NCBI RefSeq assembly: GCF_020884755.1
Contig: NZ_BPWE01000003.1
Location: forward strand, 124,001-188,000
Length of the DNA: 64,000 bases
Direction of reading: 5' to 3'
Origin: Bifidobacterium mizhiense
GTDB taxonomy: Bacteria > Actinomycetota > Actinomycetes > Actinomycetales > Bifidobacteriaceae
In this document: one piece after another, positions 31,926-42,987 of the stretch
Layout: each line of letters starts with the position of its first letter
Position numbering within the stretch: position 1 is the stretch's first letter
The notes under the pieces: generated by a model
Told to the model about the DNA's origin: nothing
The model's database searches: none
What the model saw: the letters and a program-made list of their open reading frames with translations, nothing else
Translations under genes and position numbers: made by a program

Positions 31926-32120
31926 TCAGCGGGCCAGCATCCTCTTCATGTTCTTGGACTGGGTCGGAGCGAGCACCTCGTCAGTGGACAGGTGACGACG
32001 CTTCTTGGCCGACTTGTGCTCCAGATTGTGGCGCATACCGGTCCCGGCGTGCATGAGCTTGCCCGAACCCGTGGCCCGGACGCGCTTGGATGCGGCGGAG
32101 TTACTTTTCATCTTCGGCAT
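31926..32120 (-). CDS. rpmI: 50S ribosomal protein L35
   Basis: A 64-residue protein with the L35 signature [21 protein letters not shown] and [14 protein letters not shown]. Its start overlaps the end of infC by 20 bases, so the two are translationally coupled. Normal length for the family. Confidence 0.98.
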
Positions 32121-32769
32121 TGCTGCCCTCCTTGGATTTCATCTGCTTGGGAGAAGTATTGTTGTCGGCCTTGGCAGCCAGATGGGCCGCCTGACGGGCC
32201 TTGCGCTCGGCACGGGCCTGGCCGCCCCGCCGACGCTGCTCGGACTGGGTGTGGACCTTCTTGCCCTTGGGCGACAGGGTCATGATGATGTTGCGCCCCT
32301 CCTGCTTGGGGGCAAACTCGATGGAGCCCAGATCCGCGACGTCGTCAGCCAGCTTACGCAGGAGCTCCACGCCGCCGATGGGCCGGGACTGCTCGCGCCC
32401 ACGCAGCATGATGGTGACCTTGACCTTGTCTCCGGCGGACAGGAAGCGGCGCACGTGCCCCTCCTTGACCTCGAAGTCGTGGTCGTCGATCTTCAATCTG
32501 AAGCGGATCTCCTTGATCTCCGACATGCTCTGATTGCGGCGCGCCTCACGAGCCTTGATCTTCTCGTTGTATTTGAACTTGCCGTAATCAATGAGCTTGG
32601 CGACCGGAGGCTTGGCCTTGGGCGCAACCTCGACCAGGTCAAGGTTGGCCTCCTTGGCCAGGTTGAGGGCGACGGAGGTCGCAATGATTCCCACCTGTTC
32701 GCCGTTGGGCCCGATCAGGCGTACCTGAGACACTCGTATATCGTCGTTAATCCTTGGTTCGTCGCTAAT
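32101..32769 (-). CDS. infC: Translation initiation factor IF-3 with a probable AUU start codon
   Basis: IF-3 prevents subunit joining and checks start-codon choice. The N-domain ([14 protein letters not shown] ... [25 protein letters not shown]), linker ([26 protein letters not shown]) and C-domain ([16 protein letters not shown]) are complete, plus a ~45-residue basic C-terminal tail. The conserved IF-3 opening [12 protein letters not shown] lies upstream of the first conventional start (GTG 32731-32733). The frame is closed by TGA eight codons farther upstream, and no ATG, GTG or TTG lies between. AAGGAG sits 5 bases from ATT (32767-32769) and 2 bases from ATC (32770-32772). AUU is the infC start in E. 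coli, where it allows IF-3 autorepression, so ATT is chosen, giving 222 residues. First gene of the operon. Confidence 0.95.
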
Positions 32770-33002: not shown

Positions 33003-33779
33003 TCAACTCTGACCGTTCTGGACCTCCGAGTCCTGGCTGATCAGGCGCCAGGCCTCTTTCACGACTTCCAGGAAAGCAGCGGGATCATGCGCGAAACGGC
33101 CTAGAAAGACCCCATCGACAGCTGGCCATAGCTCAGTCAACAATCCCGGAGCAGCGGCCCCTCCATATATGAGCGACAAATTGTGGCATTGGGGGCCAAG
33201 CTTGTTTTTGATAATCGAACATACCTCTTGGACGTATTCAACTGGAGCGGGGCGGGAAGCTCCGACGGCCCAGACGGGTTCATATGCAATCCAGGCTGGA
33301 AGGTCAGGCTTCTCACCCAGCCCCATTTCGATCTGTTTTAAGCAATAATCAGCGGCTGCCTCAGGACCGTGGTTGCTAAGCTCACCCACACACAGCAGGG
33401 GTGTCAATCCATTGCGCCAGCATGCACGAACCTTCCGCCCGATGAGTTCATCATCTTCCCCATACAGGCGACGGCGTTCCTCATGCCCCACTTCGGCCAC
33501 GGTCACACCCAGATCAAAAGCATCCCGGGGCGAGACCTCTCCAGTAAACGGGCCACGATCTTGATCGCATACATCCTGAATACCAAGATGAACATCCGTG
33601 GACAGCAGGGCCTGCCCAGCCTGCTCCACCGTAAGGTAATCCGGCAAAACCGCCATGGTCACCTTGTCCAGTGGAAGGGCTGAGGCATTGAGAAGATCGG
33701 CTAATCGTCGACAATATGCCAGTGTCTGTTTTCTTGTAAAATACATTTTCAGGCTTATAGCTACAATCGGCTTGTTCAT
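33003..33779 (-). CDS. Triosephosphate-isomerase homologue, probable tetrulose-phosphate isomerase (EryH/LerI type)
   Basis: A 258-residue TIM-barrel protein. TPI catalytic residues are kept: Lys11 (SLKMY), His99 (VGHEERRR) and Glu167 (YEPVWAVG). The family's near-invariant NWKMN is replaced by SLKMY, and the phosphate-loop GTG by GAS, so the site around carbon 1 and the phosphate differs from true TPI. Homologues of this type (TpiA2/EryH in Brucella, LerI in mycobacteria) isomerise tetrulose phosphates in erythritol or erythrulose use. Its place beside an RpiB homologue and a DhaK-type kinase supports that reading; a second TPI for DHAP is the alternative. ATG 33777-33779 is chosen over a GTG three codons upstream. 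Last gene of the island. Confidence 0.82.
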   Translation of the reverse strand: MNKPIVAISLKMYFTRKQTLAYCRRLADLLNASALPLDKVTMAVLPDYLTVEQAGQALLSTDVHLGIQDVCDQDRGPFTGEVSPRDAFDLGVTVAEVGHEERRRLYGEDDELIGRKVRACWRNGLTPLLCVGELSNHGPEAAADYCLKQIEMGLGEKPDLPAWIAYEPVWAVGASRPAPVEYVQEVCSIIKNKLGPQCHNLSLIYGGAAAPGLLTELWPAVDGVFLGRFAHDPAAFLEVVKEAWRLISQDSEVQNGQS

Positions 33780-33829
33780 CTTCCCCACTCTGCGCTATTA
33801 AAATTGACTATCTGCTGCCCACGGATTCA

Positions 33830-34270
33830 TCATTGCTGATGAAGCTCAAATTCGCGGATGCGCGCCACCTTCGGGCCACTTCTGGAATCAGGATCGAACT
33901 CACTGTCCAGATAGGCCCTTAACAGAGATTTGGCTGTTTCTGGTCCCAGAACCTGAGCACCCATGGCGATGATGTTCGCATCATTGCTACGGCGGGCACG
34001 CTCGGCTTGATATATGTCCGATACGCAGGCGCAATAGGCTCCCGGCACCTTATTGGCCGAGATCGAAACGCCTAGACCCGTCCCGCAAAGCAGGACACCT
34101 CGATCCGCTTCGCCCCTAACCACGGACTGCGCAAGGGCTATGGCCACGTTGGCGTAGATCGGATCATCGGTAGGAAAATCGATCACCTCGTGACCTAGAC
34201 GTCTTGCCTCCTCCATGAGCACATTCTTCAACCCTGCAGCATTAGGATCGGCTCCAAACGCCAGTCTCAT
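33830..34270 (-). CDS. RpiB/LacAB-family isomerase, probable erythrose/erythrulose 4-phosphate isomerase (EryI/DerI type)
   Basis: A 146-residue RpiB-fold protein. The catalytic Cys62 in LLCGTGLGVSISANK matches E. coli RpiB Cys66. Two departures are visible by ungapped alignment: His10 of the DH motif is Pro9 (GADPN), and His99, the residue proposed to open the ribose ring, is Ser95 (RRSNDAN). Tetrose 4-phosphates cannot form a furanose ring, so loss of the ring-opening histidine fits a tetrulose/tetrose 4-phosphate isomerase and argues against ribose 5-phosphate as substrate. AAGGAAAGG precedes ATG. Neighbours are the TPI homologue 50 bases downstream and the GntP permease upstream. Canonical RpiB or LacAB-like activity remains possible. 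Confidence 0.85.
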   Translation of the reverse strand: MRLAFGADPNAAGLKNVLMEEARRLGHEVIDFPTDDPIYANVAIALAQSVVRGEADRGVLLCGTGLGVSISANKVPGAYCACVSDIYQAERARRSNDANIIAMGAQVLGPETAKSLLRAYLDSEFDPDSRSGPKVARIREFELHQQ

Positions 34271-34321
34271 TATCTTTCACCTTTCCTTGAATCTCGAATA
34301 TCGACGTAGCGGGCTAGCGGC

Positions 34322-35665
34322 CTATACCACAACGCCTATGACGGCATCCACCAGCAGCAGAGCAATCAGACCTACCACCGATTGGACAGTCACCAGGAAG
34401 CTCCATGTCTTCAGCGTCTGAGGAACGGTCATGTCCAGATACTCCTGGAAGAGCCAGAAGGCGCCGTCATTTACATGAGAGAAGATCATCGCGCCTACGG
34501 CGATGGCCAACACAGCCAGCGCCTTATGCAAATCATCTGCTTGCGCGACCATGGGAGCCACGATGCCCGCCGCAGCGGCCACAGCGACCGTGCCGGATCC
34601 AAGAGCGACTCGGAAGAGCGCAGCGATCAGCCAGGCCAACAGAACGGTGGGAATGGCCCACTTGGCAGTGGTTGTCGCTATTTGATCGCTCAGACCAGTG
34701 CTCTGCAGCATTTCCTTAAGGCCACCGCCTGCGCCAATGATCAGCAGAACATTGACCACACCTTTGAGACTGGTCTTGCTCTGACTCAACGTCTTCTTGG
34801 CGGTCATACCCGAGCCGAGCCCCAGGAAGATCAACGCGTACAAGGCCGACAGGAGCAAGGCGACCACTGTATTGCCAAAGAATTGCGTAATCACATAACC
34901 GATGGAACCCTTGGAGAAGACTGCCTTGCCAATGGTGCCGATGATCAGCAGAACCGGAGCCAGCAAAACCGAAGGCAGTGATTTGAGTATGCCGGGAGCC
35001 TGTGCCAGGTCGTCGTCCTTGGTGGCGTACTCAGAGCCGTCGCTTACCTGATAACGAAGGTAGTACCGTTGCATGAGCTTGGGGAACAGCCAGACACCGG
35101 CCGCGAACACAGGAATGCAGATTACGATGCCGATCATGGACACCAGCCCAAGATCCACCCCGATCGCTCCTGCACCGATGACGGTTGCAGGGCCGGGAGG
35201 AAGCAGACCATGGGCGGTCATCATACCGGCGGCCATAGGAATGGCTACGTAAAGCGCACTGGTATGAGTCCTCTTAGCCACAGAGAACACAATTGGAATG
35301 AGGAGCACGAAGGTGACCTCAAACAAATTGGGCAATTCGATGATCAAAGCCACCAAACCCACAGCAAGAGGGATCAAAGCCTTCTTGCTCTTGCCCACGA
35401 TCACGTTGGCTATGCGTTCGGCTCCGCCACTGCTGACGAGCATCCCACCGATGATGGCTCCCAAACCTATCACGATACCGGTGGTGGACAGCTGAGAACC
35501 GAACCCCGTAGTAAAGGATTTGACGGTCTTCTCCGTGCCCAGGCCATTGACCAAACCAAGGCCCAAAGATGAGATGATGAGCGCCACAAAGGGATGCAGT
35601 TTGCAGTACACAATCAGAACTATTAAAACAATGATGGCGGCAATGCCGCTGAGAACTGGAAGCAT
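34322..35665 (-). CDS. GntP-family acid-sugar permease
   Basis: A 447-residue transporter with about 12-14 hydrophobic helices, the length and spacing of the gluconate:H+ symporter family. Typical blocks are GFGSQLSTTGIVIGLGAIIGGMLV, MTAHGLLPPGPATVIG, and the C-terminal region HVNDGAFWLFQEYLDMTVPQTLKTWS, which is a GntP hallmark. Characterised members carry gluconate, idonate, fructuronate, tetronates or D-serine, so an organic acid is the expected cargo. The start at MLPVLSG is supported by AAGGAAAG; an in-frame upstream extension to 35728 is not family-like. It is the only transporter of the island. Confidence 0.9.
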   Translation of the reverse strand: MLPVLSGIAAIIVLIVLIVYCKLHPFVALIISSLGLGLVNGLGTEKTVKSFTTGFGSQLSTTGIVIGLGAIIGGMLVSSGGAERIANVIVGKSKKALIPLAVGLVALIIELPNLFEVTFVLLIPIVFSVAKRTHTSALYVAIPMAAGMMTAHGLLPPGPATVIGAGAIGVDLGLVSMIGIVICIPVFAAGVWLFPKLMQRYYLRYQVSDGSEYATKDDDLAQAPGILKSLPSVLLAPVLLIIGTIGKAVFSKGSIGYVITQFFGNTVVALLLSALYALIFLGLGSGMTAKKTLSQSKTSLKGVVNVLLIIGAGGGLKEMLQSTGLSDQIATTTAKWAIPTVLLAWLIAALFRVALGSGTVAVAAAAGIVAPMVAQADDLHKALAVLAIAVGAMIFSHVNDGAFWLFQEYLDMTVPQTLKTWSFLVTVQSVVGLIALLLVDAVIGVVV

Positions 35666-35801
35666 GACACTCTTTCCTTGAATGTATGACCAAAAGACGG
35701 CCCCGAAATCAAGAGGATGCCGGGGCACGTCGAACAGTCAGGCGAATGGATCACATCCGTTGTCGATCCTCTTCACCTGACAGTCGGTAAGATCTTGACG
35801 A

Positions 35802-36797
35802 TCAGCGATTGACCCTGCTTGATCCGATAGCGCAGGCAATGTTGAAGGCATTCTGGCTTGAAGTGATGTTGGCCTTGTTCTTTCCAACCAGATCGAATGC
35901 CGTTCCATGAGCAGGCGTATCTATGAAGACAGGAAGACCGCCTTGGACAGTGACTCCACCGTCAAAGCCCATCAGCTTTATAGCGATCTGGCCCTGATCG
36001 TGGTACATCGTCACGACACCGTCATACCGGTCCTTGGCGCCGATAAATATGGTGTCAGCCGAATAGGTTCCCTCCACGTTAATACCGGCCTGCCGAGCCT
36101 GTTCGATACCAGGACGAATGATGTCAATCTCCTCGCGGCCAAAAATACCGTTCTCGCCATTATGGGGGTTCAAAGCGCAAACGCCAAGGCGGGGTTCGGC
36201 TATGCCCGAGTCATGCAACAAGTTGTGCAGCAGAGTGATTGCGCTGACCACACCATCCTTGGTGATACGGCCCGGCACGTCCTTGAGTCCCATGTGACTG
36301 GTCACTCTTGAAGTCCACAATCCTGGAATGATATTGATTTCACTCGTAAATCCATCGAAGTCCAATTTCTTGGCAAACCAACGGAGCTCGTCGAGTTCGT
36401 TCATGCCGCCCAGGTGCAGGCTGGTCTTGTTCAGCGGCATGAAGACCATGGCTTCGATTTTGCCGTCTCGCGCTAGATCAAGTCCGCGACTGAGCTGATG
36501 CAGTGCGCGCTCGCCGGCTTCCTTGGATGTTTGCTTGATAGGGATAGCGGTTTCAGGCAGCGAATGGTCGTCGAGAACGGCTACCGCATCATCATTGGGT
36601 TGATCAGCAATGGGGACTTCCAGACCGGCTTTCTCGGCCGCGGACTCCACCTCAACCCTGTCAGCCAAAACATAGATGTCAGCGGACTTGCGGTTTTTGG
36701 GATCAGCGAGCAACCTGACGCCAAGTTCAGGGCCGATGCCGGCCGGATCGCCGAACGTCATGGCAATACGTGGTTTTGTTGATGCATTTGCACTCAT
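35802..36797 (-). CDS. PdxA-family oxidative decarboxylase (PdxA2-like, catabolic)
   Basis: A 331-residue member of the isocitrate/isopropylmalate-dehydrogenase superfamily. GDPAGIGPE (16-24) and the three metal-binding histidines His168 (SHMGLKD), His212 (NPHNGENG) and His266 (YHDQGQIAIK) align with E. coli PdxA His166/211/266, so catalysis should be intact: NAD-dependent oxidation next to a carboxylate followed by CO2 loss. PdxA makes a pyridoxal precursor, but no other gene of that route is here, and PdxA2 homologues act on D-threonate or D-erythronate 4-phosphate to give DHAP. The setting favours a catabolic role on a phosphorylated sugar acid. NPHNGENG differs from the usual NPHAGEGG. 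AAAGGAG lies 6 bases before ATG. Confidence 0.85.
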   Translation of the reverse strand: MSANASTKPRIAMTFGDPAGIGPELGVRLLADPKNRKSADIYVLADRVEVESAAEKAGLEVPIADQPNDDAVAVLDDHSLPETAIPIKQTSKEAGERALHQLSRGLDLARDGKIEAMVFMPLNKTSLHLGGMNELDELRWFAKKLDFDGFTSEINIIPGLWTSRVTSHMGLKDVPGRITKDGVVSAITLLHNLLHDSGIAEPRLGVCALNPHNGENGIFGREEIDIIRPGIEQARQAGINVEGTYSADTIFIGAKDRYDGVVTMYHDQGQIAIKLMGFDGGVTVQGGLPVFIDTPAHGTAFDLVGKNKANITSSQNAFNIACAIGSSRVNR

Positions 36798-36871
36798 ATG
36801 TACTCCTTTGTTGGATATGGTGTTGGTTTATTTCCCCAAATCTTTGACCGATTGGTTCATCGTTTCGAAGG

Positions 36872-37801
36872 TCACGGCCGGGAAAGCAGTTTCTGCAGGT
36901 ATTCAGCGTTGTGAGCGCAGACGGATAGAACATCGCCTCCGTAGTGCTCACAGATGAACATGCCCTGGTACCCGCAGCTTTGGGCATAATGGACCGCCCA
37001 ACGGTAATCGATGATGCCGTCACGCAAGGTTGTGGGTATAGCAACTTGCCAGGAACCGTCAGGGGCTTCGTCGCGCTGGTAGTTCTTCAGATGCCAGTAG
37101 ACCGCATATGGAAGCGTCTTCCGATAGGTTTCGCGCCAATCATCGATCCGCCGGTGCAGGCGGACCAGGTTGCCCACGTCAGGATTGAGGCCCACGTTGG
37201 GCAGGCCTACTTCGGATACGAAACGAACGGCGGAGTCAGCGCGGCCCAGATAGGTGTCCTCATACATCTCCAAGGACATGACCATTCCTGCGTCATTAGC
37301 ATGCCGACCCAGCTCTCTGATTCTGCGCACCGCGGTCTGCCAGCGCTCAGGGTCGTCAGGCGGATCCACCGGACCTTGCCCCAACCAGAACCAAAAGGCC
37401 TTGCGCTGTGAGGAGTTCAAGGGCTGATGCAGTCCGGTTGAAAAGACTTTCATACCCATCTCTGCCGCAGCGTCAATGCTGGCGTGCGCATAGGCCAGAT
37501 TGTTCTGCCCGATTCCCGGCTGAATGACGCTGGCGCGCTGCACATGCAAGGAGGGCAATTCAACCCCGCAGCCGTGTGCAGTCTCCACCAATTCATGCCT
37601 CCTTGCAGGAGTCATATCCGCCGGCCTGATCCAGGCATCCGACAGTTCGGCGTAATGGAAACCGGCGCCTGCTATCGCTGTGAAAACCTTGGCCCAATCG
37701 CTTGGGTCGGCCTTGGTCATCGATCTACCGTCCGCTGCTTGCAGAGGCGCTCCATTCAGGCAGGTGGCAATCACTGGCTTATCGGTCACGGCCGCACTCA
37801 T
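36872..37801 (-). CDS. Sugar phosphate isomerase/epimerase (xylose-isomerase-like TIM barrel)
   Basis: A 309-residue TIM-barrel protein of the AP-endonuclease-2/xylose-isomerase-like superfamily. Candidate metal ligands and catalytic residues follow the family pattern: Glu178 (SLEMYED), Asp208 (NPDVGN), His237 (WHLKNYQ) and Glu285 (CEHYGGD). Family members isomerise or epimerise sugars and sugar phosphates; the Brucella tetrulose-phosphate racemase EryC and hydroxypyruvate isomerase belong here. The exact reaction cannot be read from the sequence. Its ATG overlaps the kinase stop (ATGA), so the two are translationally coupled and probably act in succession. Spacing to the PdxA-like gene is 74 bases. 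Confidence 0.82.
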   Translation of the reverse strand: MSAAVTDKPVIATCLNGAPLQAADGRSMTKADPSDWAKVFTAIAGAGFHYAELSDAWIRPADMTPARRHELVETAHGCGVELPSLHVQRASVIQPGIGQNNLAYAHASIDAAAEMGMKVFSTGLHQPLNSSQRKAFWFWLGQGPVDPPDDPERWQTAVRRIRELGRHANDAGMVMSLEMYEDTYLGRADSAVRFVSEVGLPNVGLNPDVGNLVRLHRRIDDWRETYRKTLPYAVYWHLKNYQRDEAPDGSWQVAIPTTLRDGIIDYRWAVHYAQSCGYQGMFICEHYGGDVLSVCAHNAEYLQKLLSRP

Positions 37802-39564
37802 GAGAGCACCACCTTGTCGGCATTGGACTGTTCTTGGCTGGCCAAATCGTTCAGTACGGGACTTACAGCTTGGACAATCATGGCGAATGAGACCGCTCCT
37901 GGGTCTGGGGTACCCAGATCCTTGCTGCCATGGGCTTTGGCACGACCCTTCTTGGGGAGCATATCGGCTGTCTCCTCAGCCCCATGGCGAGCAGCTTCTG
38001 CGGCGCGGCTCCAAGTGTTTGCCAGCGAATCACCGCCGCTGGTAAAAGCCTGCACGAAAGGATGCACGGCATCGATCATGGTCTTGTCTCCCGGTTTCGC
38101 TCCGCCAAACTCCATTAGCTGCTTGTCAGCGTCGCGCCAGCCCTCAGCAATCTCCTCCTTGCCAGGTCTCGATGAATCGGAGAGATGACCTGCCAGGGAT
38201 GTAAGCAATTCACCCCAGAGCGCTCCTGACGTGCCGCCTGCCTTATCGGCCCAGGCTTCAGCCGCTTGTTTCAATGCAGTTCGACAACCGGACCCAGTTG
38301 CTATTGCTTCATCTGCAGCTTTTGACGCTGCTTCAGCACCGCGCTGCATGCCGAGGCCATGATCCCCGTCACCCGCCACCGCATCTATTCGTCCCAGATA
38401 ATCCACGTTGTCGTTAACGCATTGCATCACAGTGTGCATGATTCTGGCCAGGCTTTGAGCAGCCTGTTTTGACTCCGGAGTGGCCTGCTCTTCTTTTTCG
38501 GTCGGACCGTCCTCCTGCGCGGACACTTGGGCATCTATATCAGTCTGGCTGGAATCTACATGATTACCCAAATGCAAAGCCGGCGTCTCTGCGGAAGCAC
38601 ACCAAAGGGGCTCCAAGTCCTCATCCAGCCAGCACAAGGAAAGCGACAATCCGCTCATATCAAAACTGGTGCAAAACTCCCCCACCAGAGGTTGGATCAA
38701 TTGCAGACCCAGCTGTGACAGATGTCGTTGGACAGCATCGTATACGGCAAAGAGCTCATCAGACTTAAGAGCGCCCAAGCCGTTAAGAATGGGAGCCACA
38801 TGCGCCCCATGCATTTGACGGTCCTCAGGTCTTTCATCCATGAGGCGCCGGACCAGCAGATCCGCCAAACCATCGATAGTAGGCCGATCTGTTTGACCGA
38901 TTCCAGGCTCTCCATGAATGCCGAGCCCTAGCGACATACGGCCTTCAGGGACACTGAACAGTGGTTTGTCCGACCCGGGCAGTGTGCATCCGGAAAATGC
39001 CACACCCAGGCTTCGTGTGCAAGCATTAGCACGTATAGCCAAGGCTTCCACAGAATCCAGGTCCATTCCGGCCGCACAAGCGGCTCCGGCGATTTTGAAA
39101 ACCGCCATATCGCCCGCTATTCCTCGGCGTTCCTGGATTCGATCCGGAGGGGCGGAATACAGATCATCAGTAACCGGCAGAACCCGTACATCATGGCCCT
39201 CAGCACGAAGCGTGCGTGCAGCCTGGTTGAAATTCAACCGATCCCCCTCGTAGTTGCCGAAGATGAGAATTATGCCTCGCCCTTGATCGGCTCGACGGCA
39301 AACATCAACAACCTGCCTGGCGGATGGAGATGCGAAAATATTGCCCTGCACGGCCGCATGAGCCATGCCCGGCCCCACGAGTCCCGCGAATGCCGGATAG
39401 TGCCCCATGCCTCCGCCGATTACCAGCGCAACCTGATCATTCCTGGAACGTGTAGAACGAATCACGCCACCCGGGCATGCCTTGACATACCCAGGATTGG
39501 CCTGGACGAATCCTCTGATCGATTCCGTTGCGAATTCACCGACATCATCAATCCGACACGCCAT
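37798..39564 (-). CDS. Dihydroxyacetone-kinase-family fused DhaK-DhaL kinase
   Basis: A 588-residue ATP-dependent ketose kinase. The DhaK half (1-335) has GGGMGHYP with His55, NYEGD with Asp108, and GLGIHGEPG with His217, the residue that binds a ketone covalently as a hemiaminal. An acidic Ser/Gln/Glu linker (about 335-375) follows. The DhaL half has DAVAGDGDHGLGM with the three Mg-binding aspartates 394, 399 and 401, then GTSGALWGELL. Because the ADP-binding DhaL is fused, it needs no PTS partner. Relatives phosphorylate dihydroxyacetone, L- or D-erythrulose and other short ketoses; erythrulose fits the RpiB and TPI homologues here. GAGAGG lies about 11 bases upstream. First gene of the island operon. 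Confidence 0.88.
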   Translation of the reverse strand: MACRIDDVGEFATESIRGFVQANPGYVKACPGGVIRSTRSRNDQVALVIGGGMGHYPAFAGLVGPGMAHAAVQGNIFASPSARQVVDVCRRADQGRGIILIFGNYEGDRLNFNQAARTLRAEGHDVRVLPVTDDLYSAPPDRIQERRGIAGDMAVFKIAGAACAAGMDLDSVEALAIRANACTRSLGVAFSGCTLPGSDKPLFSVPEGRMSLGLGIHGEPGIGQTDRPTIDGLADLLVRRLMDERPEDRQMHGAHVAPILNGLGALKSDELFAVYDAVQRHLSQLGLQLIQPLVGEFCTSFDMSGLSLSLCWLDEDLEPLWCASAETPALHLGNHVDSSQTDIDAQVSAQEDGPTEKEEQATPESKQAAQSLARIMHTVMQCVNDNVDYLGRIDAVAGDGDHGLGMQRGAEAASKAADEAIATGSGCRTALKQAAEAWADKAGGTSGALWGELLTSLAGHLSDSSRPGKEEIAEGWRDADKQLMEFGGAKPGDKTMIDAVHPFVQAFTSGGDSLANTWSRAAEAARHGAEETADMLPKKGRAKAHGSKDLGTPDPGAVSFAMIVQAVSPVLNDLASQEQSNADKVVLS

Positions 39565-39611
39565 CGTGCGCAGTCCTCTCTGTCCTCGAGCTCTTCACCC
39601 GCAAAGTTGGT

Positions 39612-39637
39612 GAGCCCAGGAGCATGACACTGGGCTC
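39612..39637 (-). promoter_or_regulatory. Leader hairpin upstream of the island operon
   Basis: GAGCCCAG (39612-39619) and CTGGGCTC (39630-39637) form a perfect 8-bp stem with a 10-base loop, 48 bases before the kinase start codon. On the minus (transcribed) strand no T run follows, so it is a leader stem and not a terminator. On the plus strand it is followed by TTCTGTTTTTC, but no plus-strand gene needs a terminator here. Confidence 0.45.
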
Positions 39638-39679
39638 TTCTGTTTTTCAGAACCGTTTCAGGACATCGCCATCCCTTGC

Positions 39680-39795
39680 GGTATTTTCAGTGATAGCAAA
39701 AATACCCATCAAAAGCGAATGCTTTATGCATTAATGGTGATATTCAGCATGAAATACCAGATATTTGTGGGAATATTTTCATTTATCAGGTATTT
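39680..39795. promoter_or_regulatory. GGTATTT/AAATACC repeat cluster, candidate SorC-regulator operators
   Basis: Within the 383-base AT-rich gap (39565-39947) the heptamer GGTATTT occurs four times in alternating orientation: GGTATTTT 39680-39687, AAAATACC 39699-39706, AAATACC 39752-39758 and GGTATTT 39789-39795. The first two form a perfect 8-bp inverted repeat with an 11-base spacer. On the minus strand a TTGATG (39707-39712) directly precedes this palindrome and could be a -35 box, placing the operator over the promoter. No other gene is seen in the gap. The natural binder is the adjacent SorC-family protein. Confidence 0.5.
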
Positions 39796-39947
39796 ATTGG
39801 TTTCGAATAAATGAAACAAGATGCTGTATGAACAGCCAAACATTTGGGCATAGCCCTGCAGAGAACAGGTTGATCAGTCTATAAAATCCACCACAATTCA
39901 GACCATGCCGCGATGCACGTCTGTATTTGTGTGTGGAGAACTATCGC

Positions 39948-40907
39948 CTACTGCCGGACCAGATGTGCTGCCGTCGTCTGGTCGATGACCAGGTGAGTAA
40001 CCAAGCCGGCATTAAGAGCCGTAGTCAAGGCTTGAACCTTGTTTTCATCGGCTACGATGAACAGACGAGTCGGCACCCTGAGCAATTCCTCTCGGCTCAG
40101 CCCAGTCGACCTTTTATTGATGGCCAAATCACGCATGCTGCCGTCGCTGCGGTAGAAGGTGGAGGTCACATCCCCCACTACATGCTCACGCTTGAGCTCT
40201 TCTCGATCATGACGGGACAGTACTCCCGGACTAAACAAGGGGCTGGGCGTGGCCCCATACGGAGTGCCGACAGAGGTTATGATCAGATCCAAGGAACGCC
40301 GCAATTCCAGCATCTGACGAATGCTGGTCTCCTTCCACATCATCTCACGAGTTTCACTGGAATCGAAGATTGCAGGGGCGGGGAACAAATGAACTTGAGC
40401 GTCATATGCGGTGCCAAAGCGAGTGAGAATCTGGGTAAAATAATTTTCCCCGAAGGAAAGTGTATTCCCGAAACCATGAAGCTGCAGAATCTCAACACCC
40501 GATAGATGCTTGGGTATCAGCTGAAGGGAGAGAGATTCTATAGTTCGGCCCCACGCCACCCCGATGACCGTATCGGAATTGACCATCTTCCAAATCTGCG
40601 ATTGAGCGGCATCTCCTACGGCAACCCTCCGCCTGGTAGCATCCAATATCTCACCAGTACCCACAACAACTGCATGGATATGGAACTCCTCCTCAAGATG
40701 ATGCCTCAGCTCGAGCGCCGAGTCCTCCTGCCGATTGACGGTGAACTCAATGATGTGGCGACGTTTCGCTTCAGACAGCAGACGCGAGACAGTTGACGTG
40801 GACACATCAAGCTCTCTTGCCACGGCTGCGACTTTCATGCCGTGCACCCAATAGAGTTCAGCGGCATCCGCCATCCTGCTTCTGGCAACATCAGGGCGTA
40901 AAGCCAT
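39948..40907 (-). CDS. SorC/DeoR-type sugar-binding transcriptional regulator
   Basis: A 319-residue regulator. Residues ~12-50 form a helix-turn-helix (AELYWVHGMKVAAVARELDVSTSTVSRLLSEAKRR). The rest is a SorC sugar-binding domain with the RpiA-like ligand fold (SDTVIGVAWGRTIESL, LHGFGNTLSFGENY, LFIVADENKVQALTTAL). SorC proteins are released or activated by a phosphorylated sugar; EryD of the Brucella erythritol operon belongs to this family. It lies upstream of and in the same direction as the island operon, with the GGTATTT repeat cluster between them, so local control is likely. The effector is probably a pathway intermediate such as a tetrulose phosphate. Confidence 0.88.
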   Translation of the reverse strand: MALRPDVARSRMADAAELYWVHGMKVAAVARELDVSTSTVSRLLSEAKRRHIIEFTVNRQEDSALELRHHLEEEFHIHAVVVGTGEILDATRRRVAVGDAAQSQIWKMVNSDTVIGVAWGRTIESLSLQLIPKHLSGVEILQLHGFGNTLSFGENYFTQILTRFGTAYDAQVHLFPAPAIFDSSETREMMWKETSIRQMLELRRSLDLIITSVGTPYGATPSPLFSPGVLSRHDREELKREHVVGDVTSTFYRSDGSMRDLAINKRSTGLSREELLRVPTRLFIVADENKVQALTTALNAGLVTHLVIDQTTAAHLVRQ

Positions 40908-40957: not shown

Positions 40958-42847
40958 TTATTTTCCGAGATCTTGAAGCCCAGGTTTGGTCCCGTCGTGG
41001 ATGAAATAGACGTCATACCAGGTCAGGAAGGAGTAGACGGTCCAGATCTTGCGACGGGCGTCGTTGCGCTTGGCGTAGTTGTCGTCCAGCATGCGCAGCA
41101 GGGCCTCCTGGTCGAAGAACTCGGACACCCAGTCCTGTTCGAACATGCTGCGGACCAGCCGGTAGTAACGCTCCTGATGCAGCCAGTCCCGGATGGGCAC
41201 AGGGAAGCCCAGCTTCTCCCTGGCTGACCACTCCCGGGGAATATGGCGGTCGGCAGCCTTGCGGAAGGCGAACTTGGTGTTCTGATCAGTGATCAGATAT
41301 TTGGTGGGCACTTTCTCGGCCACATCCATGAGCTTGCGATCCAGGAGTGGCACCCGCAGCTCCAGGGAGTGGGCCATGGTCATCTTGTCGGCCTTGAGCA
41401 GGATGTCCCCGGGCATCCACTGATGGATGTCCAGGTACTGCTTCTTCTTGAGCTCGGACAGGCTGCGCCCCTTGAGCCGGGCATAGATTCGTCCAGTGAT
41501 CTCAGAGACACGGGGGGCCTTGCGGTAGGCCGGCTTGAGCAGCCTGCCGGCCTCGTCCTCGTCGAAGACCTTGGCCTGGCCGATGAAGCTCTCCTCAGCG
41601 GGGGCCAGGTTGGCATACAGGTGCCAGGCCCCGTGGAAGTGCTTGCCCTTGGCCCAGCGTCCGATGGCATACCGGGCCTTACGTGGCAGTCGGCCCAGGA
41701 GGCGGGTGACATCTTTGATGATGCGCGAGCGCGTATGCACGCCGTAGTCTACGTAACCTGCGAAGAGCTCATCGGCGCCCTCCCCGCTCAGGACCACGCG
41801 CAGGTCCCGGCTGGCCAGCTCGGAAAGGAAGAAGAGCGGCACGCAGGAGGGGTTGGAGTCAGGTTCGTCCATGTACCACTGAATCTGTGGGAAGTAGCTG
41901 AAGGCCTGGTCGCCGTCCAGGGACTCGGTGGTGTTGTTGAGCTTGAGTATGGAGGCCAGCTCGCCGGCCTGGTCGGACTCGTTGTAGGTCCCCTTGCCGA
42001 AGCCGATTGAATAGGTGTGCCGGGGGCGTGCCAGGGCTGCGACATAGCTGGAGTCCACCCCGGAGGAGAGGAAGGAGCCCACCTCCACATCGGCCACCTG
42101 GTGGGCCTTGACTGAATCCTGGACGGTCTGGTCAATGGAGTCGACCAGGTCCTTCAGATCCTGCTTGCTCTCGCCAAAGGCCGGGTCGTAATACTGGTGG
42201 ATGTCCATCTTCCCGTCCCGGAAGGTGAACCAATGGCCCTCAGGAAGCTTGAATACGCCCTTGAAGAAGGTCTCGGGAAGCGCCGGGTACTGGAAGGTCA
42301 TGTAAGGACGCAGGGCCTGGGTGTTGAGCTCCTTGTGGAAGTCCGGATGCTGCAGGAGGCTCTTGATCTCCGAGGCATACATGAAGGTGCCGCCCATCTG
42401 GGCGTAATAGAAGGGCTTGATGCCGAAGTGGTCCCGGGCCCCGAACAGCTCGCCGCGTCCCCGGTCCCAGATGACGAAGGCGAACATGCCGCGCAGGCGG
42501 TTGACCACCTCGTGACCCCACTGCTCGTAGCCGTGCAGGATGACCTCGGTGTCGGACTCGGTAGAGAAGGTATGTCCCAGGTCGATCAGCTGGCGGCGCA
42601 GTTCACGGTAGTTGTAGATCTCCCCGTTCATGGTGATGGCCATAGAGGAGTCCTCGTTGAAGATGGGCTGGTCACCGCCCTGCAGGTCGATGATGCTCAG
42701 GCGCCGAAAACCCAGAGCCACCCGCCCATCAACGAAATGCCCCTCATTGTCGGGGCCTCGGTGGGCAATGATGTCCGTCATCCGCTTGAGCACGGCCGTT
42801 TTTTCCTCGGCAGAGGTGTCGTTGACGAACCCAGCAATTCCGCACAT
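40958..42847 (-). CDS. asnB: Asparagine synthase (glutamine-hydrolysing)
   Basis: A 629-residue class II amidotransferase making asparagine from aspartate, ATP and glutamine. The start is placed at the second ATG (42845-42847): this makes the nucleophile Cys2 (MCGIAGF) N-terminal after Met removal, and AAGGAG is 8 bases away against only 2 for the upstream ATG at 42853. The glutaminase domain has HRGPDNEGHF and MNGEIYNYRELR; the synthetase domain has the pyrophosphatase motif SSGVDSSYVAAL and VLSGEGADELFAGY. Codon use returns to the G/C-ending pattern here, marking the right border of the island. Confidence 0.96.
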   Translation of the reverse strand: MCGIAGFVNDTSAEEKTAVLKRMTDIIAHRGPDNEGHFVDGRVALGFRRLSIIDLQGGDQPIFNEDSSMAITMNGEIYNYRELRRQLIDLGHTFSTESDTEVILHGYEQWGHEVVNRLRGMFAFVIWDRGRGELFGARDHFGIKPFYYAQMGGTFMYASEIKSLLQHPDFHKELNTQALRPYMTFQYPALPETFFKGVFKLPEGHWFTFRDGKMDIHQYYDPAFGESKQDLKDLVDSIDQTVQDSVKAHQVADVEVGSFLSSGVDSSYVAALARPRHTYSIGFGKGTYNESDQAGELASILKLNNTTESLDGDQAFSYFPQIQWYMDEPDSNPSCVPLFFLSELASRDLRVVLSGEGADELFAGYVDYGVHTRSRIIKDVTRLLGRLPRKARYAIGRWAKGKHFHGAWHLYANLAPAEESFIGQAKVFDEDEAGRLLKPAYRKAPRVSEITGRIYARLKGRSLSELKKKQYLDIHQWMPGDILLKADKMTMAHSLELRVPLLDRKLMDVAEKVPTKYLITDQNTKFAFRKAADRHIPREWSAREKLGFPVPIRDWLHQERYYRLVRSMFEQDWVSEFFDQEALLRMLDDNYAKRNDARRKIWTVYSFLTWYDVYFIHDGTKPGLQDLGK

Positions 42848-42987
42848 TGGCATGACTCCTTATCGATCCACCAGCAGTCCACAATAGCCCAAAAGGGCAA
42901 CAGGAAACAGACGGGCCTCACATATATGTGGACTACGCCGGAACCCCATGGGTGAGAAGCTCCGGCGTGTCACTGGAGGCAGAACGG

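Follow-up and report, generated by a model that had tools for sequence, protein, structure and literature searches.

Analysis of a 64,000-nucleotide stretch of the Bifidobacterium mizhiense genome (contig NZ_BPWE01000003.1, positions 124,001 to 188,000; the whole stretch is hereafter called the window) identified a seven-gene island at positions 33003-40907. We consider it rather probable that this island is an acquired and conserved operon that degrades an unphosphorylated five-carbon (C5) sugar acid by way of erythrulose to erythrose 4-phosphate, with the kinase acting last. The seven open reading frames (ORFs) are intact, co-directional and all on the minus strand, and their proteins matched the Pfam families Sugar-bind (SorC), Dak1 and Dak2 (fused DhaKL kinase), AP_endonuc_2 (TIM barrel), PdxA, GntP_permease, LacAB_rpiB (RpiB) and TIM (triosephosphate isomerase, TPI), in agreement with an earlier note, made by a model from the sequence, which had described six co-directional genes of these families behind a SorC gene. 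The features of the island are as follows:

39948..40907, minus strand: sugar-responsive regulator of the SorC family that opens the island (174 bits to Pfam Sugar-bind, PF04198; the copy at locus L005 is 61% identical)
39565..39947, minus strand: intergenic region of 383 bp upstream of dhaKL, possible promoter/operator, with two imperfect palindromes
37798..39564, minus strand: ATP-dependent ketose kinase with DhaK and DhaL fused, LerK-like and proposed to act on erythrulose (Dak1 344 bits, Dak2 167 bits)
36872..37801, minus strand: TIM barrel resembling xylose isomerase, a member of the 5tnv family and a proposed decarboxylase of a 3-oxo-C5 acid (with erythrulose epimerase as the rival role; AP_endonuc_2 85 bits)
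35802..36797, minus strand: PdxA-family dehydrogenase with phosphate-type substrate residues lost, proposed free-acid C3 dehydrogenase (PdxA 266 bits)
34322..35728, minus strand: GntP-family sugar-acid:H+ symporter, proposed acid importer (GntP_permease 401 bits; TIGR00791 366 bits, cut-off 293)
33830..34270, minus strand: isomerase of the RpiB family in which Ser replaces the ring-opening His, DerI-like and proposed to act on D-erythrulose 4-phosphate (LacAB_rpiB 135 bits)
33003..33788, minus strand: divergent isomerase of the TPI family, LerI/EryH-like and proposed to act on erythrulose phosphate (TIM 173 bits)

In the proposed pathway GntP would import the C5 sugar acid and the PdxA-family enzyme would use NAD+ to oxidize the C3 hydroxyl of the acid, yielding a 3-oxo acid that the 5tnv-type TIM barrel would decarboxylate to erythrulose (or else PdxA would itself decarboxylate and the TIM barrel would epimerize). 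DhaKL would then phosphorylate erythrulose, the TPI homologue would shift the carbonyl and so form D-erythrulose 4-phosphate, and this would be converted by the RpiB homologue carrying Ser99 to D-erythrose 4-phosphate, which would enter the bifid shunt, with SorC sensing an intermediate of the route. The acid could be a linear pentonate or apionate/isoapionate, as either gives erythrulose by C3 oxidation and decarboxylation. A phosphoketolase is also encoded in the genome that holds the island.

PdxA residues were compared in E. coli numbering, with substrate and metal residues taken as in the UniProt entry of E. coli PdxA. The comparison included 16 linked PdxA homologues, namely those of the window, L005, L024, L025, the first copy at L054 (L054b could not be read in the alignment and was excluded from the counts) and 11 actinobacterial loci. 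All 16 possessed Glu136, Leu, Ile or Met at 137, Thr283 and Ile, Leu or Val at 292 (E136, L137, T283 and I292 in the window), and had lost His136, Thr137 and Arg292, while the metal ligands His166, His211 and His266 were kept in all of them along with Lys274 (H166, H211, H266 and K274 in the window). In comparison, His136, Thr137 and Arg292 were present in each of eight controls taken as phosphate users (E. coli pdxA, one enterobacterial pdxA, four homologues beside DUF1537-type kinases, L254 and L056), with position 283 occupied by Asn in seven and Ser in one. Phylogenetic analysis separated the window PdxA clade from these controls and from the L057 homologue with a support of 1.000; the latter, located beside an aromatic dioxygenase, has Tyr, Pro, Ala and Phe at 136, 137, 283 and 292, indicating that phosphate-type residues were lost there too. 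The loss of H136, T137 and R292 with retention of the metal-binding His residues and K274 can be interpreted as a PdxA that probably takes an unphosphorylated acid, which would explain the lack of an acid kinase in the operon and would place DhaKL after decarboxylation. The window PdxA would thus probably oxidize the free acid and DhaKL would phosphorylate erythrulose afterwards. PdxA homologues at L052, L053 and L055, loci where no TIM-barrel match was found, share the residue pattern of the window, and those of L052 and L053 belong to the same clade. Their neighbours include an MR_MLE dehydratase at both of these loci, a DHDPS-family protein at L052 and a beta-propeller protein at L053; these clusters resemble that of the L-ascorbate pathway, in which the PdxA substrate is reported to be free 2-carboxy-L-lyxonate.

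The TIM barrel of the window belongs to the 5tnv family (E = 2.4e-71), named after a solved structure whose title says no more than xylose-isomerase-like TIM barrel with magnesium, and fold comparison of the TIM-barrel model likewise ranked 5tnv first. Residues E178, D208, K239, R243 and E285 were invariant in all 23 aligned sequences. A profile of this family matched 99 of 396 genomes sampled from the order of the window, and the single TIM-barrel sequence matched 19 of 394 genomes of its class (own genome included in both cases). From these matches 97 loci were collected (17 of the 18 non-own class matches and 80 of 92 places in the order that were neither own nor already taken), 93 of them in stretches of at least 17 kb. 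The dehydrogenases in these stretches were of 3HCDH type in 65, PdxA in 11 and Iso_dh type in one; the remaining 20 loci comprised seven with a HIBADH type, seven with only a flavin mononucleotide (FMN)-dependent type and six with none of these, so that a beta-hydroxy-acid-type dehydrogenase was found in 84 of the 97. PdxA and 3HCDH never occurred together (0/97; Fisher p 1.3e-6, ignoring the kinship of loci), and the HIBADH gene lay exactly between the TIM-barrel and DhaKL genes in four of its seven loci. DhaKL, RpiB and TPI were present in 76, 73 and 69 stretches, with no more than 300 bp separating DhaKL from the TIM barrel in 43. Twelve of the 97 loci combined 3HCDH with the TIM barrel in stretches lacking DhaKL, RpiB and TPI (11 of at least 17 kb and one 3.2-kb contig). 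The common denominator of TIM-barrel loci is, by predicted function, acid oxidation at the beta position, and because the TIM barrel is tied to a dehydrogenase even in those 12 loci, decarboxylation is favoured as its role. Acid carriers of the GntP, TctA or D-galactonate type (the latter of the major facilitator superfamily, MFS) were matched in 46 of the 97 loci, and rhizobia were found to hold the TIM barrel together with PdxA, TctABC and DhaKL. Together with the GntP of the island, these carriers make an acid the likely substrate, as had been proposed in the earlier note.

Several closer assignments within these loci were considered and dropped. The TIM barrel was not supported as a close orthologue of OiaC, the label we presume for the Erwinia TIM barrel, which scored 8.6 bits against the profile of the window family, and K239 was abandoned as a decarboxylase mark given that the Erwinia barrel has H-x-K as well, as do many relatives. 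The 3HCDH proteins could not be assigned as L-gulonate 3-dehydrogenase orthologues, with the lambda-crystallins 3f3s (115.6 bits) and 3ado (109.4 bits) ranking below many CoA dehydrogenases. Among individual loci, L041 (1654-13287) encodes a GH39-family hydrolase, an aldo-keto reductase, a sugar-binding protein and an SDR-family protein alongside 3HCDH, the TIM barrel, DhaKL, RpiB and TPI, a gene set that hints at a glycoside-derived pentose as the source of the acid. At L034 (3138-10543) the TIM barrel lies near genes for TctA and a substrate-binding protein and an isopropylmalate/tartrate-dehydrogenase-like gene, with DhaKL, RpiB and TPI not in the stretch.

In the alignment a Ser of the window RpiB falls on His99 of the E. 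coli enzyme, the ring-opening His of true RpiB. Ser99 was found in all 70 RpiB sequences from TIM-barrel loci that covered the site, as well as in the RpiB proteins of L005, Rhizobium etli (R. etli) L217, the Erwinia cluster, two further plasmids and the sister operon described below. Among 30 actinobacterial control RpiB loci of 3.4 kb each, His was present in all 28 without a TIM barrel, DhaKL or TPI in the stretch and Ser in the two linked ones. A four-carbon phosphate cannot form the ring that the RpiB His opens, so loss of this residue is as expected for a tetrose-phosphate isomerase. The curated DerI model scored best for the window RpiB, although its 142.9 bits fall short of the cut-off of 240, and the R. 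etli L217 homologue, which lies near OiaX (785 bits, cut-off 700), passed it at 254.9 bits. The island TPI retains the Lys, His and Glu motifs, and the NWK of the other TPI of the genome reads SLK in the window, L005 and Erwinia and SFK in R. etli. As this second TPI (291 bits vs 173 for the island TPI) and an RpiA are encoded elsewhere in the genome, the island TPI and RpiB need not be housekeeping enzymes; such a role was considered and judged unlikely given these two genes, Ser99 and the His-bearing controls. With a DhaK-type kinase next to homologues of TPI and RpiB in a single operon, as in the LerK/LerI/DerI module, the island has a back end that resembles the known route from erythrulose to erythrose 4-phosphate. 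D-erythrose 4-phosphate, which the earlier note had also named as the end product, is the likely product of the island, with RpiB Ser99 pointing the same way. A Cryobacterium plasmid locus (L218, 3280-11227) encodes an aldolase, a HAD-family protein, DhaL, DhaK, an aquaporin, TPI, a Ser99 RpiB and a split transketolase, and is perhaps another erythrulose-type pathway.

A sister operon with the order SorC, MFS, DUF1537-type kinase, PdxA, RpiB and TPI was identified in two of 27 genus genomes, G003 (L265, 3451-9762) and G008 (L266, 3480-9778), the latter with a shorter kinase match and MFS frame. No DhaKL, TIM-barrel or GntP match was found within 11.5 kb of sequence at this operon, and the window TIM barrel was not found in either genome. 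Identities to the window were 54% for SorC, 69% for RpiB (with Ser99) and 54-56% for TPI. Family models, applied to the G003 operon only, gave D-threonate kinase as the best model of the kinase (181 bits, below 450) and scored its PdxA, in which His136, Thr137 and Arg292 are kept, at 473 bits with PRK03743, which has a cut-off of 470. Since the last two enzymes match those of the window, both operons probably end at erythrose 4-phosphate, with the kinase probably first in the sister operon and last in that of the window.

The seven genes also behave as a unit. The DhaKL and TIM-barrel genes overlap by 4 bp and the gaps that follow are 74, 73, 51 and 41 bp, a tight packing that is compatible with a single transcript behind the 383-bp leader. 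Inverted repeats in this leader (39752-39763/39784-39795 and 39777-39786/39807-39816) lie in a region mostly conserved in L027 and L028 but not in L005. The island is flanked by asnB (40958-42853) upstream and infC (32101-32733) downstream, as had been noted earlier under names that agree with the sequences. The lower use of G/C-ending codons remarked upon at the same time was confirmed, with the G+C fraction at third codon positions being 0.54-0.67 in all seven genes vs a mean of 0.833 (standard deviation 0.054, minimum 0.715) in 39 flanking ORFs. A scan of genome contigs yielded one relative. The full set of seven genes was recovered in identical order at L005, a Bifidobacteriaceae metagenome-assembled genome, with proteins 52-74% identical to those of the window; the 14.5-kb stretch of L005 gave no match to asnB, infC, rplT or msrAB, placing the island at a different site. 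This shared content and order indicates that the grouping is more than chance.

Within the genus, the full-length TIM-barrel gene was present in three of 27 genomes including the own one, and a fragment in one more. The operon is also intact in G019 and G011, at the site and in the order seen in the window. The fourth genome, G025 (L029, 6200-14865), carries a decayed copy in which SorC and GntP are in pieces, DhaKL has eight stops, the TIM barrel is a fragment and no PdxA match was found, and in which RpiB (100% identical to the window) and TPI (98%) have open frames. About 3 kb of sequence foreign to the operon was observed inside GntP of this copy. Of the 23 genus genomes that have neither an intact nor a decayed copy, 20 yielded the surroundings of infC; asnB adjoined infC without an island at six of these loci, and 14 had msrAB and infC with no asnB match between them. 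In one of these 14, the more distant genus member G001 (L131, 1929-2264), a SorC relic of 112 residues, 73% identical to the window SorC, was seen between msrAB and infC. This pattern of intact, decayed, empty and relic sites reflects multiple gains and losses or an ancestral island that was often lost. As judged from these comparisons, the segment is an island, conserved as a unit and gained or lost as such.

A number of observations weigh against the proposed route. The change from N283 to T is not diagnostic, being present in the sister-operon PdxA as well, and the AlphaFold models, built from two-row alignments, were poor (pLDDT confidence 39 for PdxA and 61 for the TIM barrel), so that the PdxA model was unused. 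A HIBADH or FMN-dependent type also occurs in 12 of the 65 3HCDH loci and four of the 11 PdxA loci, while seven TIM-barrel loci have the FMN type only and six have none of these dehydrogenases. Only one of the 11 PdxA loci has the gene 300 bp or less from the TIM barrel, the median gap being 3.6 kb, and 51 of 97 loci had no match to the three acid-carrier references (GntP, TctA and D-galactonate-type MFS); loci of one order are moreover related, making such counts not independent. The nearest characterized relatives of the TIM barrel are 3-epimerases, and the window TIM barrel shares only 20% identity with its counterpart in the Erwinia apionate-type cluster, with the result that decarboxylase activity is not transferable by homology. 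In addition, the general RpiB model PRK05571 scores the island RpiB at 141.1 bits, passing its cut-off of 135 and hardly behind DerI, and this is the sole RpiB of the genome.

A first alternative, which we regard as rather unlikely, retains the pathway but has PdxA both oxidize and decarboxylate the C5 acid, leaving the TIM barrel as an erythrulose 3-epimerase that turns the D into the L form for DhaKL and TPI. PdxA enzymes are known for oxidative decarboxylation, the characterized relatives mentioned above are D-psicose/D-tagatose 3-epimerases, and DhaKL is a frequent and often close neighbour of the TIM barrel. Against such a role stand the 12 loci pairing the TIM barrel with 3HCDH in the absence of DhaKL, RpiB and TPI, and the HIBADH genes located directly between TIM barrel and DhaKL, which tie the barrel to the dehydrogenase step; moreover, 3HCDH and HIBADH enzymes are not usually decarboxylating. 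A branched substrate, in which PdxA would replace ApnO in a D-apionate pathway acting on apionate or isoapionate, is also rather unlikely. Isoapionate would likewise yield erythrulose chemically by C3 oxidation and decarboxylation, and Erwinia L222 clusters SorC, RpiB, DhaKL, TPI and a TIM barrel with an ApnO-type PGDH_C dehydrogenase (PGDH_C having been scanned in the R. etli homologue). Against this, ApnO, OiaK and OiaX are not among the seven island proteins, the window TIM barrel belongs to another clade than that of Erwinia, and L041, with its GH39, sugar-binding, aldo-keto reductase and SDR proteins, points weakly to a linear pentose.

The order suggested in the earlier note, where DhaKL or another kinase would make an acid phosphate that PdxA decarboxylates to a tetrulose phosphate, is improbable for the window. 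PdxA2 beside DUF1537 works in this manner and the sister operon has such a layout, to which, with its DUF1537-type kinase and phosphate-type PdxA, the suggested order apparently does apply. In the window operon it conflicts with the loss of phosphate-type substrate residues throughout this PdxA clade (the window and its 15 linked relatives) and with the lack of an acid kinase among the operon's proteins, and the substrates of DhaK-type kinases are ketoses, which these enzymes bind through a His. The remaining explanation, a PdxA for pyridoxal phosphate synthesis among otherwise unrelated genes, is largely contradicted and would be very surprising. It is true that this is the sole PdxA of the genome, but no PdxA match was found in 22 of 27 genus genomes, the window PdxA falls below the TIGR00557 cut-off (241.5 vs 290.35 bits) with the 4-hydroxythreonine-4-phosphate site not retained, and gene order is conserved elsewhere (L005).

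Oxidation of a free C5 acid followed by TIM-barrel decarboxylation and late phosphorylation may extend well beyond bifidobacteria. We tentatively suggest, while holding it somewhat less likely than not, a widespread and as yet undescribed kinase-last route in which a free C5 acid is oxidized by interchangeable C3 dehydrogenases (PdxA, 3HCDH, HIBADH or Iso_dh), the 5tnv-type barrel represents a new 3-oxo-acid decarboxylase family, and erythrulose is converted to erythrose 4-phosphate. Candidate acids for bifidobacteria would include vitamin C-derived L-xylonate or L-lyxonate, or plant pentonates. If correct, the proposal would add an unknown nutrient class to the bifidobacterial diet that feeds the bifid shunt directly at erythrose 4-phosphate, would provide a function for the 5tnv TIM-barrel family, and would show PdxA, a textbook phosphate-substrate enzyme, to have been recruited for free sugar acids. 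The two operons of the genus, one kinase-first and the other kinase-last, would also form a clean pair for studying a swapped order of phosphorylation and decarboxylation.

In comparison to known systems, the operon most closely invites alignment with the D-apionate pathway, which Carter et al. reportedly described in 2018 as running via ApnO and OiaC and ending in L-erythrulose. The Erwinia L222 cluster (rpiB, MFS, DhaKL, TPI, TIM barrel, ApnO-type dehydrogenase and SorC) resembles such a pathway through OiaC and erythrulose. SorC, DhaKL, TPI and RpiB homologues are shared with the window (23%, 52%, 40% and 46% identity, respectively), as would be the sequence from C5 acid through 3-oxo acid and erythrulose to erythrose 4-phosphate, whereas the window has PdxA in place of ApnO (no PGDH_C dehydrogenase is among the seven island proteins), a TIM barrel of another clade and GntP in place of MFS. 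The R. etli D-apiose pathway (OiaX, OiaK and DerI) has the same terminal tpi and rpiB pair with a Ser99 RpiB but differs in placing a DUF1537-type kinase, OiaK, first and in its RuBisCO-like decarboxylase OiaX, neither of which was matched among the island proteins.

The DUF1537 and PdxA2 pathways of threonate and erythronate, reportedly due to Zhang et al. in 2016, resemble the proposed route in acid uptake and a PdxA-family beta-hydroxy-acid dehydrogenase, but the window lacks the phosphate-type PdxA residues and has TPI and RpiB in addition. Family scans found no DUF1537 acid kinase, lactonase or RuBisCO-like protein among the seven island proteins, the rest of the genome not having been searched for DUF1537, and the distinction that the earlier note had drawn from DUF1537 and RuBisCO-like pathways held. 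Stack et al. are said to have reported in 2020 a PdxA-family 2-carboxy-L-lyxonate decarboxylase in the L-ascorbate pathway; L052 and L053 have PdxA homologues of the residue type and clade of the window, while the back end of the window would make erythrose 4-phosphate and the lyxonate dehydratase, propeller enzyme and lactonases are absent from the seven island proteins. Erythritol and threitol catabolism, which uses EryC/H/I or LerK/LerI/DerI, has a DhaK kinase and TPI and RpiB homologues in common with the island, where an acid carrier and PdxA stand in place of polyol enzymes (no polyol kinase or polyol dehydrogenase is among the seven proteins).

A pathway with this combination of acid-oxidizing enzymes was not found described among the matches listed in a literature search that left most subscription journals outside its reach. 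In the parts of a regulon study of ten Bifidobacterium genomes that were available (PMC4746261), an L-xylonate operon of B. bifidum is placed under another regulator and the operon of the window is not described. For the overall chemistry there is an animal precedent in the pig, where L-gulonate 3-dehydrogenase takes D-xylonate to D-erythrulose, which proceeds onward to D-erythrulose 4-phosphate (PMC6201911).

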